Source: a virus. Taken from it: a stretch of DNA of 64,000 nucleotides. The first letter of the stretch is position 1. The number at the start of each line of letters is the position of its first letter. A model generated the notes under the pieces. The model searched no databases, was not told where the DNA came from, and was given only the letters and a program-made list of their open reading frames with translations. The translations under genes were made by a program, and so were the position numbers. This document shows, in pieces, positions 23,530 through 37,683 of the stretch. The stretch is from IMG/VR virus record IMGVR_UViG_3300034062_003964, positions 1 to 64,000 of that record; one strand, given 5' to 3'.

Positions 23530-23836
23530 AATAGAAAATGTGTGTATCTAAAGCCGCTTTATAATCTTGTAGTGATGCGGTTAATGGGAAAGGTATAATT
23601 AAAATTGTTCCATCAGGAATATTTTGTTCCAATCCACCATACATCGGGTTTGCGGCTAAAATCAACCAACCAAAATATGGTGTTCCATATTTTTCAAAAC
23701 TTATTTTATCTAATCTACTTTTACCTGTTCTATAAAGATATTGTTGGTCCGATACTCTTGGTGGAATAGATAAAAATGGGACTACAGTTTGTTGCCCATT
23801 AATTAAAAAATCTTTATATCTGTTATAGTAATCCAT
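23519..23836 (-). CDS. gp53/LysM-like baseplate wedge protein
   Basis: A 105-aa protein resembling the gp53-type baseplate component that bridges neighbouring wedges. The central section YRTGKSRLDKISFEKYGTPY, then GWLILAANPMYGG, then a PDGTILIIPFP ending, follows the gp53/LysM-like pattern (a Y-G-x-P-x-W-x-I-L-x-AN motif and a closing I-x-IP strand). T4 gp53 is 196 aa, so only the core is present. Its ATG overlaps the stop of the 2034-aa gene (TAATG), and its end overlaps the 2321-aa gene start by 11 bases. All three are translationally coupled, which supports a common baseplate role. Confidence 0.8.
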   Translation of the reverse strand: MDYYNRYKDFLINGQQTVVPFLSIPPRVSDQQYLYRTGKSRLDKISFEKYGTPYFGWLILAANPMYGGLEQNIPDGTILIIPFPLTASLQDYKAALDTHIFYYGR

Positions 23837-26800
23837 TAATTAAATTTTTTTTTCAAGTTAAATTTATCACCTGATGAGTTTCTACTAGAGTAAATGTTTG
23901 TTAAATCCCTGTCATATGGAGACGTTGCCGGTACTTGAGATTCATACCACATTAATCTTTGCTTATCTATATTATAAGGCTTATAATTAGTAAATGTAGA
24001 ATTAAAGTATTGAGTTTTAAAATCCTCTACATTTTTATCAACTATTGTTTTAGATGTTAAGTAAATAGATTGTAATCCCGTTTCGGGAGATTTTAATTTA
24101 TTATCAAAGAATGTTTTCCATTTACCCTTATCTTCAGAGTTCGCGTTTGGTAACGCTTCATTTATAATAATATCGGCAAAACTATCGGGGTCATCACATA
24201 TTGGTTTACCGAACATCATAAAGAATCTTGTTTCATTCTGTGTTGTGTTGTTATTTGGTAAGTACATGTCTTGTGTAAAGTTATCGCTATAATCATATAC
24301 CCCCGTCGGTATTAACCCAAAGTCTATTAATTTTTGGTAATAAGTATTTAAATCATCTTTGATGAGGTAAGAATCTTGAATTAATTCTTGTAGTGTATCG
24401 ACCGCAGTTGTTGGTTGGGTCACTTCAGTTGTTCCTGATACATTATATACAATTACAGAATTATTCTTTTTAATAAACCCGTCATGTGAATTGGAAACAT
24501 AATTAATTTTATCTATTAAACTTACAAGAGTTAATTCGTTAGTGGATATTTGGTCTGAATATCCTTGTAACTCATACGCAATAACTTGAGCTCTATTATC
24601 GATTTCAATTTTAATTTGTCTTTTAATCTTTCTTATTTGTACGTCAATAAATGGTTCATTATTTAAACCTGCTAATAATGGACATAAGCCATTATCAACA
24701 TCATTTTTAGTTTGGGTTGTTAAATTTTCAATTTTTGTTTGAAATGAATCTGAGTAACCAAAAATATTTGCAGTATTCGATAGATTACCGCCTAAACTAT
24801 TAAAATAACCTTCAGTAAATTTTCTATCTTTTGTAAGAATTTGAAGACCTCCAAGTAAAAAGTCATCATTAACTTTAGATAACGTAGCGGTTGTAGTTTC
24901 AAAATACGATTTAGATATGTTTGCAAATTCTGTCATCACATCTTTATATTCAATCGTACCCGTAGTTTGTGTTGTATCTATATTTAAAACATTCGTTAAC
25001 GTTTTACCAATAGTAACACCACCATTATTAATTTCGGGTCTTGGGGCCTTTGTATCAATAACATTTAATTCATCTCTTACTTGACTTAAAACTTGAGCAT
25101 CGTAAACACTTAAATCTAAATTATCAGTAGCTTCAGCCCTTTCATCATACATTTCTGTATTCGCATAATAATTAAACGATAATGCGTTTTGTAATTTTGC
25201 AACAGGTCCCGCTAAGCCATGAGCACCAATAAATGAGAAACTAATGTCCACAGATGCAATCATTGGTTGTATACCTATACCTTCAGGGTTCAAGTCAAAC
25301 TTACCATCGTCATATTTTAAACTTATCGAATCAATAGCCACTTTTGTATGGAAAAAGTCACCAACTCTTAAAATACAAATAGGTGGAGCCCCAAATGCAC
25401 TATTCGATACATCATTATATAATAAACTTTGTTGTCCACTATCCGATTGAGAAACTGTAGGTATTGTATCACCAGGTCTCATACATTGTTGTAAGAATAC
25501 TAATCTAGCATTTAACCCTTCAGGTGTTATTGAATGGAAAGCCGGATGAAACCCTTTAATTTTAGATTTAATACCATCATAAACCATTGGGTCCGTTTGT
25601 TTTATATATTCAAAATAGTTGCACTCTGTAAGTAATTTTCTTGCTAATCGTTTTGTAATATCTTTTCTTTGTTGTAATTGTTGTGTTTGTACTTCTTGTT
25701 CCCTTGTATTAGGTGGGGTATTAGAAGATGGTGTTGAATTCTCCGGTTGATTAACTCTAGGGTCTGTAGAAACATTTGGTTGTTGTGGTGTTGTAGTCGT
25801 AGTTGTTGTTTCAGTTACTTGACCCGTTACTTGATAATCTTGGCCAGATAATTCTTGGTTGGTTTGCGTATTAGGGGTTTCTTCAGGTGGATTTTGTGTT
25901 TGTGATATATTTTCACTTGGTAATATATTTGAAATCTTTGTTCTACGGCAAGCCATAGCGTTTACAGAAACGGTCCCTTCCTCTTTTGTAGTCTCAAATG
26001 GCTTATTACAATCAACAAATTTATATTTTGTATCTTGGATTTCTACATTGTTCCCTGTATATTTTTCTGTAATTTTTAATTTAGTCCCTTTAAAGTCGTT
26101 AAATGATTTTCCTTGTGGCGTTTTTTGTTTATATAACCATTGTAAAACACTATCACCTCTTCTTTTTGATAAATTCAAGTTATAATTATTTGCACTACTA
26201 TTAACCGAAGACGCACTCGCTTCTAAATCAAACGAAACATCTCTACCTTCATCTAAAAGTTTACCAATATCTTGTACAAAATTTGTTAATAGTGTGTAAT
26301 TTTCTTCAATGTAATTAAAGAATTTTTCTACATTTTCTTTTGTAGTATCAATAAAATCTGACAAATATTTTATTTTAGCGTTTTCAGTTAAACCACTACC
26401 TAATACATATGATGTTCTATCAACCTTAGCAGAATCATTATATGCAAATATTTTATTTAACGCCTTTGCGTATTTTGAACCATTACCATCATTTAGGTAT
26501 TTGTTTTTAGAACCAATGTAAAGGTCATACCAATATTTATAATCGTTACTTACTGTTGTATCGTAAGTACTTGTACCATCTGGAAAATTATTATCAAAAT
26601 AAAATGCTAAATCTTTATATTTTTCTTTTATAGTTGTTGGTGTTTCATTATCATCTGTGGTACTTGATGATGTTGTAGTCTTTTTACATGCCTTACCTGT
26701 TGGTATTAAGGTATTTGATGTGTCACTTATCTGAAAGAATGGTTTTGATTTTGTAACCGAACAAAAACTTCCCGTTTTACCTGAAGTTAAAAGTGTAATG

Positions 26801-29800
26801 GTAACATTTGTTTCACCACAACCCGTGTAATTTAAAGTAGCCCCTGTTGATGCACCGATATTATAATTATATTCTATACAATCGTCAACAACTGTAGTTG
26901 TTGTAGTTGTGGTGTTAATATCAACTTCTTGTTCGATTATTGAAAAATTATTTTCCTCAACCACAGTAACAATGTCTTCAGTGGTTAGTATTTGCGCTTC
27001 AAAAATATCGTTTGGTGTAAACATAGGGAATTTAGTAACTAAATCCCATAAATCGTATTTTGTACATCCAGCATAGAAAGAATCAATAATTTGAGTTATT
27101 TCTCCGTTATTTGAAACATTTGCTAATTCTTTTTCAACCAATAAATTCATTATTGATGGGTGGTCAACAATTATTTTAAAACTTACATTACCCTTTCTTG
27201 TTGAATTAGTATACGTGTATATTGGTTCAGTTCTACCTAAAAAAGTATTGTCCTTCCACCCTGTTGAAATATTCTCATTAAATGATAAGTCATAAGGCGG
27301 GAACCACATAATCCTACCACCATTAGGACCTTTTTCACAAGCCGGTAAATCATCATAAGTGTAACCTTTTTTATTTGATGTTCTCCATGCTAAGTTTTCT
27401 AATGATAACATGTATTTTTTTACACGACCATCTTTAATACTATACCCATCAACAGGCGCAATATTTAAATTCCAAGTATTATCTAAAACTGAATTTCCAT
27501 AACCTCTAATGTTTCCATCACGTTTTTGAAGTTCGTCGTAAGTGTAGTATGGTCTATCTTTTGTAAAGACTCTACAATATTCATAACCTTGTGGTGTGTT
27601 AGTTCCTTGTGGTTTAGAATTTGGTGTGGTATATCTCACAACTCTTGAACCTTTTGTTAATTCTTGATACCCGTCATTAAATACTTTAGATACCTGATTG
27701 ATTGCCGTACCAACGTGTTCTTGGGGTTTTGTACTTCTTTGTCCCGCATCTACTAATTTTTGAGTAACATCTAAAATAGACCCCGGAGTAAAACTCTTAC
27801 TAGTTGATTTACTACTATCAAATCCAACTAAACTACCAAAATTAAATTCACTATTATCTTCAAATTGTTCACCTCCTCGACCTACTAATTTACCAATACC
27901 AGGATTATTATCTTTTTCAGGACTTTTACTACCCGTCCAAGTTAAACCTCCAAAAATGCTAGCACCAATCCATTTTACACCATCTTTATTAGCACCAGCA
28001 CCATAAAAGTTTCTAGTATTTATACCAAACTGTGTTTCATCTAACTGGTCACCTTCATATAGTTTACCCATACTTGAGTAAGATAGAACAGGTCCCATTG
28101 CTGAGGTTTTTCCGTCTTTCGCATATGGTAATTCTGAAGCCGGAGAAACTAACTCTATAATGTGATTTTTTCTATCTCCAATATAAAATACACCAGCAGG
28201 TGCTAGTAGGTTGTTACCAATTTTATAATTTGGCCTATATGGGTTATATTTTAATTGGTCATAAAGAAGTTTTCTTGTAGCTATTGATGTATATTCAACA
28301 AGTAATTCTGAAGATGATTGATTTGCAGGTTGTAATGCACTAAACAAAGAACCTAAAGCCCCACCAATTAAAGATAATGGATTTTCATATGGTCCATTAC
28401 CTATCGGGTCAGGGTAGTCAAAAATTTCACCAGGTATATATGAATACGGTGAATATAGGCCTGCAAGTTTCGCTGCAAAATTAATACCTTGACCAAATAA
28501 AAAGTCGGGTGTTGTGATATTATATTTTCTAGCAATTATTGGCACATTACCCGTAAGCAATCCAATAGCGTTAAACGGGTCTGTGTTTGGTTTTGCCGAT
28601 ATTTCACCCGTTTCAGGATTAACGTTACCACTAAATAAATTTATTTGACCTAACGTCTGTTGGTACAGTTCTAATGCGACTCTATGTTTGAACTCTTTAT
28701 TTAAACTTTTTGCGCCAATATTAGCCAAATCAGAATCTTGTGTTAATGAACCATCAGACCCTGAAGGGTTATCACTTAATAAAATACTATATGGAGTATA
28801 TGTTGAAGGTAAGAATATAAATGTATTATCTGAATTAGCATAAGGTAATTGTAAAGCTACCGTTTGGAGTGTTTTAAACTCAGTAGGGTCATATTCACCG
28901 TCCCCTGTTGCGTATTTGTTAGATAGGTATGCTTGTGTTTCTTTTACTCCACTTACAAACTCTAATTCATTACCATACGTATCGGTTTCATCTAAATAAT
29001 TTCCTTGTGGTATTATTAAATTTTTTTGTTTTCTATAAGGGTCTACCTCTTCGGTACTTTGACTTCCTTCGGGACCCCATGGATTTTGTAAAAAGTTTGG
29101 TTTTCTTTCATCAACACCAACCATTTCCAACTGACTATCTACAGTATCAGGATAACCATACTCACCTTCATTTGAATTTGTTTGTAAATTTTGGTTAATT
29201 ACTACCGACGTGTTTGGTAGATTATCGGGTCCGTATTGATTTATAGCAAATAATACCGGTCTATCAGTTTCACCTTTATTTTCTAATTCACTATTTACCG
29301 TATCAGGATAACCATACTCACCTTCATTTGGATTTGTTTGAAGATTATTGTTGATTGGTACTTGAGTGTTTGTTTGTATCTCAGGACCATATTGGTTATT
29401 AGATATCAATGAAGGTCTATCTAAATTAGCGGTAGTTTCTAAACCACCTCCAACCGTATCTTGAACTGTATACTCACCCTCACCAATAGTACTAATTACT
29501 TTATCGTTATTTATATACCATGCGGTTGAGCCAAAATCGGATAATCCGTTTTCAGGTCTATAAACATTTTTAATAATAATTTGTTTTTCGGTGTTGTTTC
29601 CAATAACTTCTAAATCACTTCCGATTGAATCAGGATAACCATACTCACCTTCATTTGATTTATAATTTTTATTATTATTGATTGGGACTATATCGCCATA
29701 ATCTTTTGCATTGGTTTGTGGACCATATTGATTAATTGGTAATAAAACTTTTTCTTGTTGATTTCCTATTTGTTCAACACTTGGGGAATCTATCGGTACT

Positions 29801-29940
29801 AAATCATTTATATTAAATTCGTTAGAGCCAGGTTTTCCATCTTGTGAAAAGGCATTCTCTATCTTATATGGTGGAAGATTTCGCACCAAAAGTTTTTTTC
29901 TAAAATTTTCACTTGAATTAAATGATAGTGGACTCTCCAT
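23836..29940 (-). CDS. Giant multidomain baseplate/tail protein with OmpA-like domain (2034 aa)
   Basis: A 2034-aa protein. Residues about 62-330 hold five 52-56-residue repeats (NQYGP...NEGEYGYPDTV). Around residue 880-960, WKDNTFLGRTEPIYTYTNST and the following FKIIVDHPSIMNLL resemble tube-like baseplate proteins (the F-x-GR-x-EP-x-Y-x-Y motif). Near 1220-1280 is an OmpA/MotB-like peptidoglycan-binding segment (VSFDLEASAS, then NNYNLNLSKRRGDSVLQWL). Short Thr-rich linkers (TTTTTT) flank it. Around 1520-1580, a second beta domain (VGDFFHTKVAIDSISLKYDD) appears. The C-terminal part is helical. It is co-transcribed with the tape measure gene upstream and the gp53-like gene downstream. A hub or cell-wall-contacting baseplate role is inferred. 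Confidence 0.75.
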   Translation of the reverse strand: MESPLSFNSSENFRKKLLVRNLPPYKIENAFSQDGKPGSNEFNINDLVPIDSPSVEQIGNQQEKVLLPINQYGPQTNAKDYGDIVPINNNKNYKSNEGEYGYPDSIGSDLEVIGNNTEKQIIIKNVYRPENGLSDFGSTAWYINNDKVISTIGEGEYTVQDTVGGGLETTANLDRPSLISNNQYGPEIQTNTQVPINNNLQTNPNEGEYGYPDTVNSELENKGETDRPVLFAINQYGPDNLPNTSVVINQNLQTNSNEGEYGYPDTVDSQLEMVGVDERKPNFLQNPWGPEGSQSTEEVDPYRKQKNLIIPQGNYLDETDTYGNELEFVSGVKETQAYLSNKYATGDGEYDPTEFKTLQTVALQLPYANSDNTFIFLPSTYTPYSILLSDNPSGSDGSLTQDSDLANIGAKSLNKEFKHRVALELYQQTLGQINLFSGNVNPETGEISAKPNTDPFNAIGLLTGNVPIIARKYNITTPDFLFGQGINFAAKLAGLYSPYSYIPGEIFDYPDPIGNGPYENPLSLIGGALGSLFSALQPANQSSSELLVEYTSIATRKLLYDQLKYNPYRPNYKIGNNLLAPAGVFYIGDRKNHIIELVSPASELPYAKDGKTSAMGPVLSYSSMGKLYEGDQLDETQFGINTRNFYGAGANKDGVKWIGASIFGGLTWTGSKSPEKDNNPGIGKLVGRGGEQFEDNSEFNFGSLVGFDSSKSTSKSFTPGSILDVTQKLVDAGQRSTKPQEHVGTAINQVSKVFNDGYQELTKGSRVVRYTTPNSKPQGTNTPQGYEYCRVFTKDRPYYTYDELQKRDGNIRGYGNSVLDNTWNLNIAPVDGYSIKDGRVKKYMLSLENLAWRTSNKKGYTYDDLPACEKGPNGGRIMWFPPYDLSFNENISTGWKDNTFLGRTEPIYTYTNSTRKGNVSFKIIVDHPSIMNLLVEKELANVSNNGEITQIIDSFYAGCTKYDLWDLVTKFPMFTPNDIFEAQILTTEDIVTVVEENNFSIIEQEVDINTTTTTTTVVDDCIEYNYNIGASTGATLNYTGCGETNVTITLLTSGKTGSFCSVTKSKPFFQISDTSNTLIPTGKACKKTTTSSSTTDDNETPTTIKEKYKDLAFYFDNNFPDGTSTYDTTVSNDYKYWYDLYIGSKNKYLNDGNGSKYAKALNKIFAYNDSAKVDRTSYVLGSGLTENAKIKYLSDFIDTTKENVEKFFNYIEENYTLLTNFVQDIGKLLDEGRDVSFDLEASASSVNSSANNYNLNLSKRRGDSVLQWLYKQKTPQGKSFNDFKGTKLKITEKYTGNNVEIQDTKYKFVDCNKPFETTKEEGTVSVNAMACRRTKISNILPSENISQTQNPPEETPNTQTNQELSGQDYQVTGQVTETTTTTTTPQQPNVSTDPRVNQPENSTPSSNTPPNTREQEVQTQQLQQRKDITKRLARKLLTECNYFEYIKQTDPMVYDGIKSKIKGFHPAFHSITPEGLNARLVFLQQCMRPGDTIPTVSQSDSGQQSLLYNDVSNSAFGAPPICILRVGDFFHTKVAIDSISLKYDDGKFDLNPEGIGIQPMIASVDISFSFIGAHGLAGPVAKLQNALSFNYYANTEMYDERAEATDNLDLSVYDAQVLSQVRDELNVIDTKAPRPEINNGGVTIGKTLTNVLNIDTTQTTGTIEYKDVMTEFANISKSYFETTTATLSKVNDDFLLGGLQILTKDRKFTEGYFNSLGGNLSNTANIFGYSDSFQTKIENLTTQTKNDVDNGLCPLLAGLNNEPFIDVQIRKIKRQIKIEIDNRAQVIAYELQGYSDQISTNELTLVSLIDKINYVSNSHDGFIKKNNSVIVYNVSGTTEVTQPTTAVDTLQELIQDSYLIKDDLNTYYQKLIDFGLIPTGVYDYSDNFTQDMYLPNNNTTQNETRFFMMFGKPICDDPDSFADIIINEALPNANSEDKGKWKTFFDNKLKSPETGLQSIYLTSKTIVDKNVEDFKTQYFNSTFTNYKPYNIDKQRLMWYESQVPATSPYDRDLTNIYSSRNSSGDKFNLKKKFN
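28950..29757 (-). repeat. Five diverged 52-56-codon tandem repeats
   Basis: Protein repeats start at about residues 62, 118, 174, 226 and 278 of the 2034-aa protein. Conserved marks are NQYGP and NEGEYGYPDTV, with degenerate versions VYRPE and NPWGP. At DNA level a shared stretch reading atcaggataaccatactcac recurs near 29147, 29306 and 29629. The repeat is in frame and probably forms an elongated beta-rich arm. Confidence 0.8.
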
Positions 29941-29978: not shown

Positions 29979-31781
29979 TTAGGATAGAACCCCTTGTTGT
30001 TTTTTATATTCATTCATCTTATAAAGGACCGTATCCATTATTTGTTTTTGGACTTGTGGTGAATTAAACATTTTTGTTATTTGTCCCGGGTCTCCACCAA
30101 TAGAGCCAGTCAGATTAATATTTATATCTATTTTACCACCAATACCTCCACCACCACCTTTATTAAGTGCATCTGTTAAATTAGTACCCATAGCAACTTC
30201 ATCCCCAACAATCCCTTCATATAATTTACCTTTAGCTAATAATTGTGGGGCGTCACCAGTTGCGCCATATAATAAATCTTTTGTTTTAATTTTAACTTTA
30301 GCCTCGTTTTCTGACTCCGATTTTTTTGTAGCCTCGTCGGCAATATCTTGAGGGGACTTATTTTCCTTAAAATCTTTGTTTGCATAATAATCTGCAATAT
30401 CTGACACACTTTGGGTAACTGCGTCGGTACTAGTTGTTGCCACTTCACCCGCACCTTTACTTCCTTTTTTAATTTTTTCTTCTAAATCTTTTCTTTCTTG
30501 TGGAGAAAGATTTTTCATTATTGTTTCTTTAATCGTTCTAATATCAATAGCTTGGTTTTCAGCTATAGTAAGTTGGTCTACGGCTAATTGTTTATCATCC
30601 ATTTTCATTTTTTCTTGATACTCAGCAAGAGCTTTGTCTAATTCGGCTTTTTTACCTGTATCTTTCAGAATTTCATCAAGAGTTTTACCTTGTGTGTCAA
30701 ATCCGGGTACATCAACCATAATTTTACCAGAACCTTTTTGTATGGTTGTAAGACCTGCTAATAATCCTTTACTTTCCTCAGAAACCTTTGATAAGTCAAT
30801 CGCATTTTCAATAAATTCTAATTTTGCAGCTTCTCTACCCGCTTCTGCCATTTTTTCAAAATCACCACCAACAATATTAGCCTGTTCACGTAATCTGTAT
30901 AAATCCTGTGTTGACGCCTCAAACTGACCTGTACTTTTATTAAACGCATATGCGGATTTTGTCGATTTAACTAATTCTTCTTGTAACCCTTCCATATTTG
31001 TTTGAGCCATGTGAAGAAGTTGGAATGGGTCTCCTAATTTACCAACAGCCCCACCAAGCATTTGAAAACTTGCTGCAGCTTGCATAGCACCCTCAGGGTC
31101 CAAAACTTTACTTTGTAATGATGCGGCACCAATGTCCTGAATTGATGTTCTTAACATTTGAGCTTGTTTAACCATTTTACTTAAACCTTCTACCCCGTCT
31201 TTAAAACCAAAACCAGATAATTTTTTTAAGTTAGTGTTAACTTCACCAATAAATTTACTAGCATTAAGACCAAGTTTTATAGCCTCCTTTCGCATTTTGT
31301 TCATTTCTTCTAATGCTTCTTGTTGGGTTCCACCATATCTAATCATTTCGGCCACCATTTTTCCAACTGATTCTGCCGTCATCCCCGCCAATTTTGAAAA
31401 CTGAACCATATTTGAAATATTTTCAGTACTACTTCCAACCATTCTACCCATTTCTCCTGACATTCCTTGTATAACATCTAGTGAGTCTTTGAATGTGGCG
31501 CCAATATCTAAATTTGTTTTATATGCTTCGTAAAGTTGTTGATTAAAATTTGCAGAGTTGAAGGCGACTCCCCCCATACTTCTTTGTAAACTCTTTGCAG
31601 AGTTTTCCATTGAAACTATTTGTTGGGAAACATTTTCAAAAACTGTTTTAACGTTTGGTCCAACAAAATTAGTTACCGCATCTTTTAATTGGTTAATTTG
31701 GTCTAATACGTCTCTACCGCCAGTGTATTCTGATGCATTACCAGCTGAGGTGGTATCGGTAGATTGGTCTATAAAAAACAT
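29979..31781 (-). CDS. Tail tape measure protein (gp29-like)
   Basis: A 600-aa, largely helical protein, close in length to T4 gp29 (590 aa), which sets tail length and is ejected ahead of DNA. It shows long amphipathic helices (residues 20-330) with alternating Gln/Ala/Met/Gly repeats. Near residues 540-565, a Gly-rich stretch (KGGGGGIGGKIDININLTGS) precedes a C-terminal helix. Position is diagnostic: after a gp26-like gene and the start-less frame described separately, and before the baseplate hub genes. The gp19-type tube has a modest tail module around it. A TATTTAT element precedes the ATG by 12 bases. No membrane segment is obvious. Confidence 0.85.
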   Translation of the reverse strand: MFFIDQSTDTTSAGNASEYTGGRDVLDQINQLKDAVTNFVGPNVKTVFENVSQQIVSMENSAKSLQRSMGGVAFNSANFNQQLYEAYKTNLDIGATFKDSLDVIQGMSGEMGRMVGSSTENISNMVQFSKLAGMTAESVGKMVAEMIRYGGTQQEALEEMNKMRKEAIKLGLNASKFIGEVNTNLKKLSGFGFKDGVEGLSKMVKQAQMLRTSIQDIGAASLQSKVLDPEGAMQAAASFQMLGGAVGKLGDPFQLLHMAQTNMEGLQEELVKSTKSAYAFNKSTGQFEASTQDLYRLREQANIVGGDFEKMAEAGREAAKLEFIENAIDLSKVSEESKGLLAGLTTIQKGSGKIMVDVPGFDTQGKTLDEILKDTGKKAELDKALAEYQEKMKMDDKQLAVDQLTIAENQAIDIRTIKETIMKNLSPQERKDLEEKIKKGSKGAGEVATTSTDAVTQSVSDIADYYANKDFKENKSPQDIADEATKKSESENEAKVKIKTKDLLYGATGDAPQLLAKGKLYEGIVGDEVAMGTNLTDALNKGGGGGIGGKIDININLTGSIGGDPGQITKMFNSPQVQKQIMDTVLYKMNEYKKQQGVLS

Positions 31782-31805: not shown

Positions 31806-31979
31806 TTAAGATTTTTTGAATGAATCTAATAACTTTTCAACAAAATATTTCCTTTCAAAAACAGGCATTTTCATTATATCAGAATATGAAAAATTACCAT
31901 ACTTAACTAAAAAGAAAATTTCATCTAAAACAATTTGTTTATATTGTAAAGAAAGGCCGAAAAAATTCAGCCCCAAAGG
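31806..31979 (-). CDS. Start-less frame before the tape measure gene: candidate +1 frameshift extension of the gp26-like chaperone
   Basis: In the +1 frame relative to the gp26-like gene, an open frame begins after a TAG at 31980-31982 and ends at TAA 31806-31808. From 31958 it encodes 50 residues beginning GLSLQYKQIV and containing DEIFFLVKYGNFSYSDIMKM, then PVFERKYFVEKLL. The first ATG is too late to include the conserved-looking part. The overlap contains GAA TTT TTT CGG: slipping from TTT to TTC by one base, at a rare CGG codon, enters this frame. An overlapping start-less frame immediately before the tape measure gene matches the classic tail-assembly-chaperone frameshift layout. An alternative is re-initiation at the TTG at 31974-31976. 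The frame itself is seen; the frameshift is inferred. Confidence 0.65.
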   Translation of the reverse strand, partial: PLGLNFFGLSLQYKQIVLDEIFFLVKYGNFSYSDIMKMPVFERKYFVEKLLDSFKKS

Positions 31980-32697
31980 CTAACTCAACGCTTACCTTTT
32001 CTCCTGACGGGGCTATTACTGTTTTTTTAACATCTAATTTAGGTTCACATTCATTAATAAATTTTCTTAATGATTTAGAGTCTGAAATTGGCATTTGATT
32101 AACGAATCTAGATATTTTTTCTCTATCGGTGTCATTTTCTATTGATATGATGTGTTTTTCTATTCTCTTAGTTACTATTGGAACTACCATACCAATAGGG
32201 TATTGTTCATTGATTTTATCTAATTCTCTAGTGTCAGATAATGTTAAAAGTTTTAATTCAACTTTTTTATTTGTTTTAGGTAAAACGTATTCAAAATTTC
32301 CATTTGAATTTTTTTTATGTGCGGAGTATATGTAATTAATTTCATCAAATAAAAGGGTAACTTCAAATCTATCACCTGTTTTAGGGTCGGATAGTGAATA
32401 TGTATAGTCTGAACCAAATGCGGTATTTCTTAAAAATAATAATATCGCCTTTACATCACTATCTATTAATTGACTAATGTCAAAACCCGGCTCATAAATT
32501 TTATTTTTTAATAAATTATATATTAAACCTTCTTTAGCGGTGTTTTGAGAAAGAATTAAATTTTCGTCAGAAGCTGTTAAATAACCAACTTTTAATGATT
32601 CTTTTTTAGGCTTATAAGATTCACCACCACTAGGTAATTTAACTATATCATGTGGAAGATTGAAATCCATTTGTCCGTATTGTGTACTTTGGTCCAT
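31939..32697 (-). CDS. gp26-like baseplate/tail assembly protein (T4 baseplate family)
   Basis: A 252-aa protein whose opening (FNLPHDIVKLPSGGESYKPK, then LKVGYLTASDENLIL) matches the T4 gp26-type baseplate or tail-assembly chaperone family. The middle has a beta-rich part (TYSLSDPKTGDRFEVTLLFD) and the C-terminal half is charged and helical. Located right before the tape measure gene, it probably chaperones the tape measure or initiates hub assembly. Its last codons, GCT GAA TTT TTT CGG, contain a candidate +1 slip site leading into a 50-codon extension. Without slipping the protein ends RPFFTI. The tail-tube gene and a terminator lie upstream. Confidence 0.8.
   Translation of the reverse strand: MDQSTQYGQMDFNLPHDIVKLPSGGESYKPKKESLKVGYLTASDENLILSQNTAKEGLIYNLLKNKIYEPGFDISQLIDSDVKAILLFLRNTAFGSDYTYSLSDPKTGDRFEVTLLFDEINYIYSAHKKNSNGNFEYVLPKTNKKVELKLLTLSDTRELDKINEQYPIGMVVPIVTKRIEKHIISIENDTDREKISRFVNQMPISDSKSLRKFINECEPKLDVKKTVIAPSGEKVSVELAFGAEFFRPFFTI
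31957..31968 (-). promoter_or_regulatory. Candidate +1 ribosomal frameshift site
   Basis: On the minus strand the codons read GAA TTT TTT CGG. A Phe tRNA on the second TTT can re-pair with TTC one base forward. The following CGG codon is rarely used in this AT-rich genome and would pause the ribosome. The +1 frame then reads GGC CTT TCT and remains open for 50 codons. The minus-one frame stops after 11 codons. Confidence 0.55.
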
Positions 32698-32790: not shown

Positions 32791-33279
32791 TTAGTATACC
32801 AAGATACATCTATCAGGTCTCAATGTTGCTTTAACAGTAATCAAACCATCTTCACTATAACCTAATGAGTCAAAATCAACATTTGTTAAGAAACATCCTT
32901 GTAAAATCCATTTCTCAACAGCAACACCAGTTGGGTCTAACATTTCAAGGTCAACATCTTTTTTGTAACCTGCAGCATAACCCATACGTCCTGTTACTGA
33001 TTCAGCATGTAAACGAACCCATTCCATAAGTGCTTGTGATGCAGAAGGACCAATTGGGTCACGGAATGTAACATCTATTGAACCCCATTTAAATTGACCT
33101 GCAACATATGTTTCAGTATTTAAGAACGGAATTGGAACTTCTTTAATTTCAATTTTTGGTCTTGAAGCACTTTCAACATACCAAGAATTAATTCCCAAAG
33201 AAGATGGGAAAGTTATAATAAACCTATTTTTTCTTTTAGGTTCATATTGAAAGGGCATTTTCATTAACAAATCAGCCAT
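32791..33279 (-). CDS. Tail tube protein (gp19-like)
   Basis: A 162-aa protein of the T4 gp19 tail-tube family (T4 gp19, 163 aa), which polymerises as stacked hexamers to form the DNA conduit inside the sheath. Family features are PFQYEPKRKNRFIITFPS at the N-terminus, IPFLNTETYVAGQFKWGSID in the middle, the FRDPIGPSASQALMEW helix, and the closing GCFLTNVDFDSLGYSEDGLI strand pair. It has its own terminator and an upstream TATTTAT motif, as expected for an abundant structural gene. The HAD phosphatase gene lies upstream in the same direction. Confidence 0.95.
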   Translation of the reverse strand: MADLLMKMPFQYEPKRKNRFIITFPSSLGINSWYVESASRPKIEIKEVPIPFLNTETYVAGQFKWGSIDVTFRDPIGPSASQALMEWVRLHAESVTGRMGYAAGYKKDVDLEMLDPTGVAVEKWILQGCFLTNVDFDSLGYSEDGLITVKATLRPDRCILVY

Positions 33280-34455: not shown

Positions 34456-37400
34456 TTAGATATTGTCAAAAGACGCGCCTGTTGGTGTAATGACAAACTC
34501 GATGTCGATGTATTCTAACGCTCTTGTTGGCTTCAAGAAGATTTTACCTGTCAATGTATTTGAATCTAAATCTTCAGGTGTGTTAGATACTTGAACTCTA
34601 AAGTCAATCAAACCCCTATCTCTTCTAATTTGGTCTAAGATTGGGTTAACTGAATCCAAGAAGTCTTGTCTTACTTTGTTATCGTTTTGTTCGAACAACA
34701 ATCTGATGGCTACCGCTGAAATCAATTTACGTGCTTGTAGTAACAATCTTCTTACGTTGATTCTGTCAAGTGCAGATTCTCTAACTTGCATTGTTTTGTT
34801 ACCCCAAATCACTGTACCCACATCAGAGAAAGTTGCAATTGGGTTGATTCTACCTTTGTATAATACATCTCTATCTTCTTGTGTCAACTTACGTCTTGCT
34901 CTAATAGCATTTACCAAACCTCTTGTGTAACCCGCTGATGCGAACCAAGGGAACGCTATGTTATCAGTTAACGCTAAGTTTCTAACAACTTCTGAAGTTG
35001 CTGGAATATAAATTTGTGTGTTATTAACTGTATCTCTTGTTAAAATCCAAGGATAGTAAGTTGCTGTGTAATTTGAATCTATACCTGTTGTATCTAAATT
35101 ATCTACCGCCTCTTGTGGGTAAATTAAACCTTCAGAGATGTCTTGGTAAGATGGTAAGAACATATTAAAGTCAGGTGTTGTTGCAATGTAAATTGAATCT
35201 GCTCTATCTGTTTCAATCATATCAATAGCATCTTCAACCAAGTTTGAGTTATTAACATAATCAATACCAGGTGTTGCAAATACGTTGATGTTTGTTGATT
35301 CAGGGTTTGCAAAAGTTGATTGACCCCATTTGTATGCGTAGTAGTCAGTATTAGCCCAAGTTTCTTGGTTAGGTCCTGAAATTTGTTTGAACGCCCCCCA
35401 TCCTGTTGCTGTTGGGAATGTTACTGAACTTGCTGCCCCAAATTTAAATCCTGTTTGACCTAATGCGAATGTGTCACTATTAGTTCTATATTCTCTATAG
35501 ATATCCCAACCATCAAATCCACCATATGCTAATAAAGTAAATTTACGTGAAATTAAATTGTAGTATGGATTAGTATTATCACTAGGTTCAGAATTAAATG
35601 ACCCCGCACCTACTTCAAATGCCGATTGACCTGAAGTTACATATGAACTTGATACCGTTACAACAGTAGCTCCGCTATCCATGTGGAATCCTTTAGTTAA
35701 ATAACCCCAAGATGGTCCTGTTGTATCAGTAGCGATATTATTTGGTATTTGTTTTCCTTTATATTGAAAGAAGTCGTAGTCAAAACCTGATATATTAGAT
35801 ATACCTAAGTATGCTCTTCTTTTATTTTCACCACTTGAGATAACTGGGTTATCACCTCCACTCGTCGAACCAAATGGTGGGTTATAGATAACTTCACCTG
35901 CTGTGTAGTATTTAGTTTTGTAAGGTACAAATGGTGGAGTTGCGTTAGCATATTGTCTCATAATGTAACCCTCAAATCCACAAGGTAGTGCGTTTGTAGG
36001 AGCTTCATCACTCATTTCTAACATTATATATTTAGACTTAACTTCATATTCACCGTTAGATGTTCCAATTTTATTAGCAACATAATTATTTTGAGTTGGG
36101 TCCAATGAACAATTTGTAAAACTTTCTAAAACTCTAACATTTTGGTCGTTATCAAAAAAGTCTCTTACAAACACATCAAATGTTCCATTAGCAAATGATA
36201 CATTTCCGATTGAAAGTTTAACGTATGTGTTAGCAGAATTACCGTCAGAAATAAGAACAAATTTAAATAATTTATAAACTGTATTACCTCTTAACTCAGA
36301 TACAACAAAAGGTGTTTCTGGAGTTTGGAATTGTTCTAAATAGAATGCAATTGATTCTGTAGTTGGTGAATATCTAACACCAGGTAAATCAACTAATTCA
36401 CAATATAAACCTCTAATTTGACCTGCTCTATATCCTGTTTGTAAAAGTGCGGGATATGTCTCTTCGATAAATAAAGGAACTTCAGTTCTGTTTTTACCAA
36501 AATTAGTTGCTCCAAATACATTACGTAAATAATTTTTAGATGTCGATAACATAGAAGTTTCAAAAGAGAAATCATTACCGTCATATGTCACACCACTAAT
36601 TTGGAATGTTTCATAAGGGTTTTTAGTTACTGCCGAGTAAGCTCCCGTACAATTCATAGTAACGTCAGTTAAACCTGATACTTGATAGGAAGGTCCTTTT
36701 ATTGTACTACTATATGTAGACACCCCTCTTGACCTTAAAGTTGCAACAACCATATCATCGTATGTTGTGTAAGGTGCCCCTGAATAAGATGTAGTAAAGA
36801 AACTTACTGAACCTGAATATACACCTGTTGATGAACTACCTGATATTGTTGACATAGTTGCCCCCATACCTTGTCCAAAATATGTGTTAACGTCATTTGT
36901 ACCTTGATAGTAATTAAATAACCCATAATACCATGAGTCATTTACTGTTTGAGCACTTAATGATGATGCTGTTGCTCCCGTTATATTTCCAACACCAAAG
37001 TTTTCACTGTAAGATGTTACTACACCAGTACCATTTAATGTTACACCGGTTGTACTAGTAAATGTTGATGCGGTTACTGTCCCCCAGAATACTGAAGTTG
37101 AACCTGAAGTTGCGGCACTTGTAGAGTAAAGATTTATTTGACTGGAAATATAAGTTTGTAAATCTGATGCTATTGTTGAGGTTCCCCCATTAAATTCCGT
37201 GTAAGGTAAATAAAAATTACCATTAACATTAAGTGTTGATGGGACTGACAATAATGTTACGGTTCCTCCTGTATTTCCTGAGAATAATACAGTAACAGGT
37301 CCTGTTGTTCCAGTTACTTGTATAGTTGCGGGGTTAACGTTACCTATTGTTACAATAGACCAAGATGGTCCAGCGTCGTAACCTGATAAACCTAAGACTC

Positions 37401-37683
37401 TTGTCACAAATAATTGATTTGATTGTGATAAGTAAGATTTAGCAATATATGCCAATTCGTATTTTGGAATTTGTGTATTAACAAATTTTTCAGGACTTGT
37501 TCCTCCAAAATAAGTTTGGAACTCGTCAAAATTTGTTATAAAAATAGGTTCAAATGCGGGTCCTTGTAGGGTTTCACCTACTACACCTAAAGTAGTTACA
37601 CCAACACTCTGAGCCACAAACGTTAAGTCTCTTTCTGATGTGTAAACACCTGGAGAAACGAAAACCTTATTAGATGATGCCAT
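34456..37683 (-). CDS. Tail sheath protein (gp18-like), enlarged
   Basis: A 1075-aa contractile sheath subunit, against 659 aa for T4 gp18. The N-terminus VFVSPGVYTSERDLTFVAQS and the next VGVTTLGVVGETLQGPAFEP are diagnostic of phage sheath proteins. The conserved C-terminal core is present, including PWFASAGYTRGLVNAIRARR, the INPIATFSDVGTVIWGNKTM segment and LDRINVRRLLLQARKLIS. Between residues about 110 and 600 lie several hundred Gly/Ser/Thr-rich beta residues not needed for the core, probably surface-exposed domains. A stem-loop follows, and a TATTTAT motif lies 34 bases upstream, opposite a divergent copy facing the small plus-strand gene. Confidence 0.95.
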   Translation of the reverse strand: MASSNKVFVSPGVYTSERDLTFVAQSVGVTTLGVVGETLQGPAFEPIFITNFDEFQTYFGGTSPEKFVNTQIPKYELAYIAKSYLSQSNQLFVTRVLGLSGYDAGPSWSIVTIGNVNPATIQVTGTTGPVTVLFSGNTGGTVTLLSVPSTLNVNGNFYLPYTEFNGGTSTIASDLQTYISSQINLYSTSAATSGSTSVFWGTVTASTFTSTTGVTLNGTGVVTSYSENFGVGNITGATASSLSAQTVNDSWYYGLFNYYQGTNDVNTYFGQGMGATMSTISGSSSTGVYSGSVSFFTTSYSGAPYTTYDDMVVATLRSRGVSTYSSTIKGPSYQVSGLTDVTMNCTGAYSAVTKNPYETFQISGVTYDGNDFSFETSMLSTSKNYLRNVFGATNFGKNRTEVPLFIEETYPALLQTGYRAGQIRGLYCELVDLPGVRYSPTTESIAFYLEQFQTPETPFVVSELRGNTVYKLFKFVLISDGNSANTYVKLSIGNVSFANGTFDVFVRDFFDNDQNVRVLESFTNCSLDPTQNNYVANKIGTSNGEYEVKSKYIMLEMSDEAPTNALPCGFEGYIMRQYANATPPFVPYKTKYYTAGEVIYNPPFGSTSGGDNPVISSGENKRRAYLGISNISGFDYDFFQYKGKQIPNNIATDTTGPSWGYLTKGFHMDSGATVVTVSSSYVTSGQSAFEVGAGSFNSEPSDNTNPYYNLISRKFTLLAYGGFDGWDIYREYRTNSDTFALGQTGFKFGAASSVTFPTATGWGAFKQISGPNQETWANTDYYAYKWGQSTFANPESTNINVFATPGIDYVNNSNLVEDAIDMIETDRADSIYIATTPDFNMFLPSYQDISEGLIYPQEAVDNLDTTGIDSNYTATYYPWILTRDTVNNTQIYIPATSEVVRNLALTDNIAFPWFASAGYTRGLVNAIRARRKLTQEDRDVLYKGRINPIATFSDVGTVIWGNKTMQVRESALDRINVRRLLLQARKLISAVAIRLLFEQNDNKVRQDFLDSVNPILDQIRRDRGLIDFRVQVSNTPEDLDSNTLTGKIFLKPTRALEYIDIEFVITPTGASFDNI

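Follow-up and report, generated by a model that had tools for sequence, protein, structure and literature searches.

A candidate +1 frameshift site in the gp26-like tail chaperone gene of uncultured T4-like phages

Between its tail tube and tape measure genes, an uncultured virus carries a gp26-like gene whose end is overlapped by a second open frame, which raises the question of how this frame is translated. We addressed it in a window of 64,000 nucleotides, positions 1 to 64,000 of IMG/VR record IMGVR_UViG_3300034062_003964 (121,467 bases). On the minus strand, the genes follow each other in the order sheath, tube, gp26-like and tape measure. The tail sheath gene (34456–37683; phrog_23, E=2e-54) and the tail tube gene (32791–33279; phrog_4542, E=4e-29) precede the gp26-like gene (31939–32697). 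The latter encodes a protein of 252 aa, referred to as TAC-N or the short form, which matches PF12322 (T4_baseplate, E=2e-7; 31.3 bits, above the curated cut-off of 24.5) and phrog_150 (E=1e-14). The tape measure gene (29979–31781, 600 aa) was assigned by comparing its family profile with the proteins downstream in immuto relatives (hhalign 98.7%), and the immuto reference record annotates the homologous gene as tail tape measure. Further downstream, a 2034-aa protein (23836–29940, minus strand) matches OmpA-like PF00691 weakly and short of the curated cut-off (E 0.0045), and it could be assigned to no PHROG family.

The zero frame of the gp26-like gene ends in ...FGAEFFRPFFTI*, with the stop codon at 31941–31939. 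Close to this end lies GAATTTTTTCGG (31968–31957, minus strand), which occurs only once in the 121,467-base record and contains the putative slip site UUU UUU CGG (31957–31965), with UUU 31962–31960 as the predicted P-site codon and CGG 31959–31957 as the presumably slow A-site codon. Five sense codons separate CGG from the zero-frame stop. The +1 frame runs from GGC (31958) to a stop at 31808–31806 and spans exactly 50 codons after GAA TTT TTT CGG (GLSLQYKQIVLDEIFFLVKYGNFSYSDIMKMPVFERKYFVEKLLDSFKKS; extension TAC-C, 31809–31958), so that the frame reported by the initial annotation can be read directly from the sequence. Its conserved part indeed begins before the first ATG, which falls inside it (MKMP). 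The description of the frame as start-less holds for ATG and GTG, neither of which is found upstream, but not for TTG: a single candidate start of this kind precedes the slip site by 11 nt in the +1 frame (31974–31976). The –1 frame of the window sequence stops four codons beyond the zero-frame stop; the conserved extension is the +1 frame. An open overlapping frame is thus combined with a slippery site that is conserved and close to the zero-frame stop, and the predicted frameshift product, TAC-NC, would comprise 296 aa (31809–32697).

T4 gp51 consists of a PF12322 domain (1–201) and a C-terminal tail, whereas T4 gp26 contains the domain only. With hhalign, the extensions of the window family matched those of the immuto/Mel-JY01 relatives (groups B/C) at 98.9% and those of cyanophages at 91.8%, and the cyanophage extensions in turn matched the C-terminus of gp51 at 96.4%; none of 60 column shuffles reached the scores of the extension comparisons. 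Because the direct match between window-family extension and gp51 is weak (10% probability, E 0.003), the link between the two passes through the cyanophage extensions. The window fusion scores 65.9 bits against phrog_150 over profile positions 10–273 of 282 and thus matches the gp26/gp51 profile nearly from end to end, compared with 50.8 bits over 10–228 for the part before the slip site. Fusing raised this score in all five proteins tested, with the smallest gain in L077 (49.6 to 52.7). A confident AlphaFold2 model of the fusion (pLDDT 83.9, pTM 0.73) shows three C-terminal helices, and a fold search of BFVD with this model returned T4-like baseplate hub proteins. Searches of the PDB by sequence and by fold gave no significant match, and Pfam gave no meaningful match to the extension alone. 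These comparisons suggest that the longer form carries a C-terminal domain homologous to the end of gp51, with the direct match being weak.

If the extension is translated, it should evolve as protein in the +1 frame only. Past the zero-frame stop, pN/pS is 0.25 in the +1 frame and 1.1 and 1.3 in the other two, values derived from overlapping pairs, so that the counts are not independent; substitutions in the +1 extension distribute over the three codon positions as 2558/1844/5179. Judged from these patterns, the +1 frame past the zero-frame stop is evolving as a protein. Ahead of the slip site, conservation lies in the zero frame, and the +1 residue at position –2 changes radically (L/W/R/Q/S); downstream of it, the +1 residues are conserved. 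Conservation therefore switches from the zero to the +1 frame at the slip site, as predicted if translation enters the +1 frame there. Together with the gene order and an extension homologous to the C-terminus of gp51, this frame-specific selection supports the view of the initial annotation that a pair like lambda G/GT is encoded in front of the tape measure gene.

The initial annotation had also named related phages as the place to check the site. A scan of viral contigs in IMG/VR yielded 80 relatives and, with one isolate added, 80 window-family loci with a complete junction. Every one of these 80 loci keeps the open +1 frame, and 79 of them carry the slip site TTTTTTCGN, in the form TTTTTTCGN CCT TTC TTY (TTT TTT CGN CCT TTC TTY); the isolate PQ819873 reads TTCTTTCGT, i.e. 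TTC TTT CGT CCC. An independent DNA pattern search matched at least 120 viral stretches, 80 of which were read, and an open +1 extension of at least 38 codons was present in all 76 that were not cut by a contig end. The same pattern, searched in bacterial genomes also as a route to the host, gave no match there. Being kept in all 80 complete junctions, the overlap is not due to chance. A sequencing or assembly artefact, or the decaying tail of a pseudogene, would have to recur in these metagenomic and isolate loci as well as in 171 distinct junctions of the wider +1 clade described below, and would not account for purifying selection on the extension. On these sequence comparisons, the artefact reading is excluded by conservation, and we give either variant next to no probability.

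Codon choice was analyzed in 30 representatives with less than 90% identity to each other. All of them carry TTT TTT followed by CGN, whereas at the other Arg positions of the gene CGN has a share of only 9.8%, with AGA and AGG accounting for 90%. The CGN codon is CGT in 13, CGG in ten, CGC in six and CGA in one of them. The upstream Gly codon is GGG in 30/30, against an expected usage of 12.7% (p=1e-27); it belongs to a GGGG element at 31971–31974, 8 nt from the P-site UUU. GGGG is invariant in the window family and also present in many immuto-type relatives. Downstream, CCT and TTC are conserved because the +1 residues L-S require them. In the window, the slip site holds the only CGG among the 4,759 codons of the seven tail-region genes analyzed, and the larger ORFs have five in 17,911 codons. 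The relatives thus bear out both the frame and the site, including slip-site codons that depart from usage. Site and codon constraint also support the slip of a Phe tRNA from TTT to TTC suggested in the initial annotation, with the amendment that CGN is conserved and not the rare CGG itself.

From the observed overlap, conserved site, codon constraint, selection, homology and gene order, we infer a frameshift event together with its level, exact slip codon and role in assembly. We consider it very probable that a single gene gives rise to a short and a long tail assembly chaperone (TAC-N and TAC-NC) by +1 ribosomal frameshifting at UUU_CGN. The majority of ribosomes would read the gp26-like TAC-N through to its stop. 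In a fraction of them, tRNA-Phe would occupy the second UUU while the A-site awaits the rarely used CGN, slip one base forward and re-pair with UUC, so that GGC would be read next. The resulting 296-aa fusion would end in a three-helix domain, the counterpart of the T4 gp51 C-terminus. By analogy to lambda gpG/gpGT, the short form may serve as a coat for the tape measure protein, and the long form, which would be rarer, may recruit tail tube subunits.

We also looked for elements that could assist such a shift. Around the slip site, GGGGCUGAA and UUCGGCCUU can fold into a hairpin in the window sequence. This hairpin was rejected, since it shows no covariation and 18 and 10 of 29 sequences disrupt its two middle pairs. 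A search for a stimulatory RNA structure downstream was negative, and Rfam gave no match. A phage-encoded tRNA as the reason for CGN was dismissed, as a search of the 121 kb record found no tRNA gene. A Shine-Dalgarno role, either for GGGG or for an internal start, was discarded as well, with an SD-like motif preceding only one of the 37 larger ORFs of the window.

The main rival to frameshifting is internal initiation at the TTG (31976–31974), by which the +1 frame would yield a separate small protein (M-G-L-N-F-F-G-L-S...) rather than a fusion. This TTG is present in 29 of the 30 representatives next to the invariant GGG, and several related phage records annotate the corresponding region as a small gene of its own. 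The remaining evidence points the other way. In locus L075, TTC GGG replaces the TTG while slip site and frame are kept, and the open stretch holds no ATG, GTG or TTG until a GTG located 31 nt beyond the slip. Among 113 distinct junctions of the sister groups in the wider +1 clade, 33 offer no start at the slip site or ahead of it and 69 lack an ATG. The +1 residues between TTG and slip site vary radically at one position, and T4 gp51 is itself a fusion of N and C domains. We therefore see only a small chance for internal initiation and retain ribosomal frameshifting as the preferred explanation.

A survey of the junctions in 307 loci placed the site in the wider phage family. The window family uses UUU_CGN, and the immuto/Mel-JY01 groups use UUU_UGG, UUU_CUU, UUU_CUA or UUU_UAC, all in the +1 direction; in three immuto/Mel-JY01 loci, the –1 frame is as long as or longer than the +1 frame. 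Flavobacterium phage immuto, an isolate of the +1 clade, reads UUU_CUU UGG at its site. An in-frame UUU_Y, as in a UUU_Ynn site, is found in all 171 distinct junctions of this +1 clade. These junctions also bear on RNA polymerase slippage, by which mRNAs lacking one U of the T6/T7 run would yield the fusion by ordinary translation. Most junctions do carry runs of six to seven T, but TTT_TTT is replaced by TTT_CTT or TTT_CTA in 33 distinct +1 junctions, and those listed with CUU or CUA in second position contain no T run longer than three. Moreover, CGN after the T run is invariant, although polymerase slippage would not need it. Its probability is slighter still than that of internal initiation, and a shift by the ribosome again fits the junctions better.

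Cyanophage relatives shift in the –1 direction at U_UUU_UUN in 61 of 61 loci, and ten further isolate records show the longer extension in the –1 frame. The –1 users comprise cyanophages, rhizobiophages, Ackermannviridae and Schizotequatrovirus, most of them with U_UUU_UUN. T4 gp26 ends with TTC TTT, and no extension frame is open there. In a quick tree of the N domain, which contains some long branches, one split with an SH-aLRT of 100 separates the +1 users from the –1 and two-gene users. In the cyanophage loci L083 (1475–1680) and L319 (2205–2400), annotation treats the gp51-like region as a gene of its own, which in S-H38 begins at an internal ATG. Since the –1 frame stays open from the gp26 end onward, the annotated starts of these separate genes are probably wrong. 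We tentatively suggest, as a possibility we would not yet favor, that the direction of programmed frameshifting switched once within this homologous chaperone family, leaving a large clade of uncultured T4-like phages on +1 UUU_Ynn, and that the GGGG invariant in the window branch acts, eight bases upstream, as a stimulator in hosts hardly using Shine-Dalgarno pairing.

As far as the papers citing it convey its content, Vladimirov, Gautam and Davidson (2022) identified T4 gp26 and gp51 as the tail assembly chaperones of T4-like phages; according to these citing papers, a short gene occurs along with a long fusion gene in some T4-like phages, and a 2025 paper among them mentions known poly-T –1 signals in TAC-N genes of T4-like phages. 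The statement that no such site had been described for T4-type gp26 genes accordingly does not hold for –1 signals; for +1 sites in the gp26/gp51 family, our literature search, in which Vladimirov et al. was covered through citing papers, found no description. The proposed fusion shares its family (PF12322/phrog_150) and its architecture of N domain and C-terminal tail with gp51, but T4 has two divergently oriented genes for the two forms, which in the window a single gene would produce by means of its +1 site. The –1 genes of cyanophages, rhizobiophages, Ackermannviridae and Schizotequatrovirus have a homologous N domain and an extension at the same place near the gene end, yet they differ in direction and lie on the opposite side of the well-supported split (SH-aLRT 100).

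In lambda, as in the window, a chaperone pair stands between tube and tape measure genes, and a rare shift close to where the short gene ends gives the lambda long form (PMC5009743). This comparison concerns arrangement and not sequence, and the lambda shift is –1, unlike the +1 site of the window. G-T frameshifting was reviewed in 2016 as widely conserved, T4 excepted, with UUU_Ynn being especially prone to +1 shifts in bacteria (PMC5009743). Because haloarchaeal HSTV-2 is listed there as very likely shifting +1, and +1 shifts are given for structural genes of Listeria phage PSA (PMC5009743), the –1 direction does not define all frameshift chaperone genes of the lambda G/GT kind. The influenza A PA-X site UCC_UUU_CGU and the amalgavirus site UUU_CGN share core and direction with the window; they belong to eukaryotic RNA viruses without homology to it, which makes this a convergent use of the site type.

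Taken together, and judged from the sequences compared, uncultured T4-like phages of a large group appear to make a short and a long tail chaperone from one gene, with some ribosomes skipping one base forward at an almost invariant site. Published members of the family shift –1 or rely on two genes; the site would add a natural and strongly conserved +1 case, and a bacterial counterpart to UUU_CGN as found in influenza A and amalgaviruses. It would account for the short ORFs currently annotated as separate hypothetical proteins in related phages, and +1 and –1 shifting within one family would offer a clean comparison for the evolution of frameshift direction.
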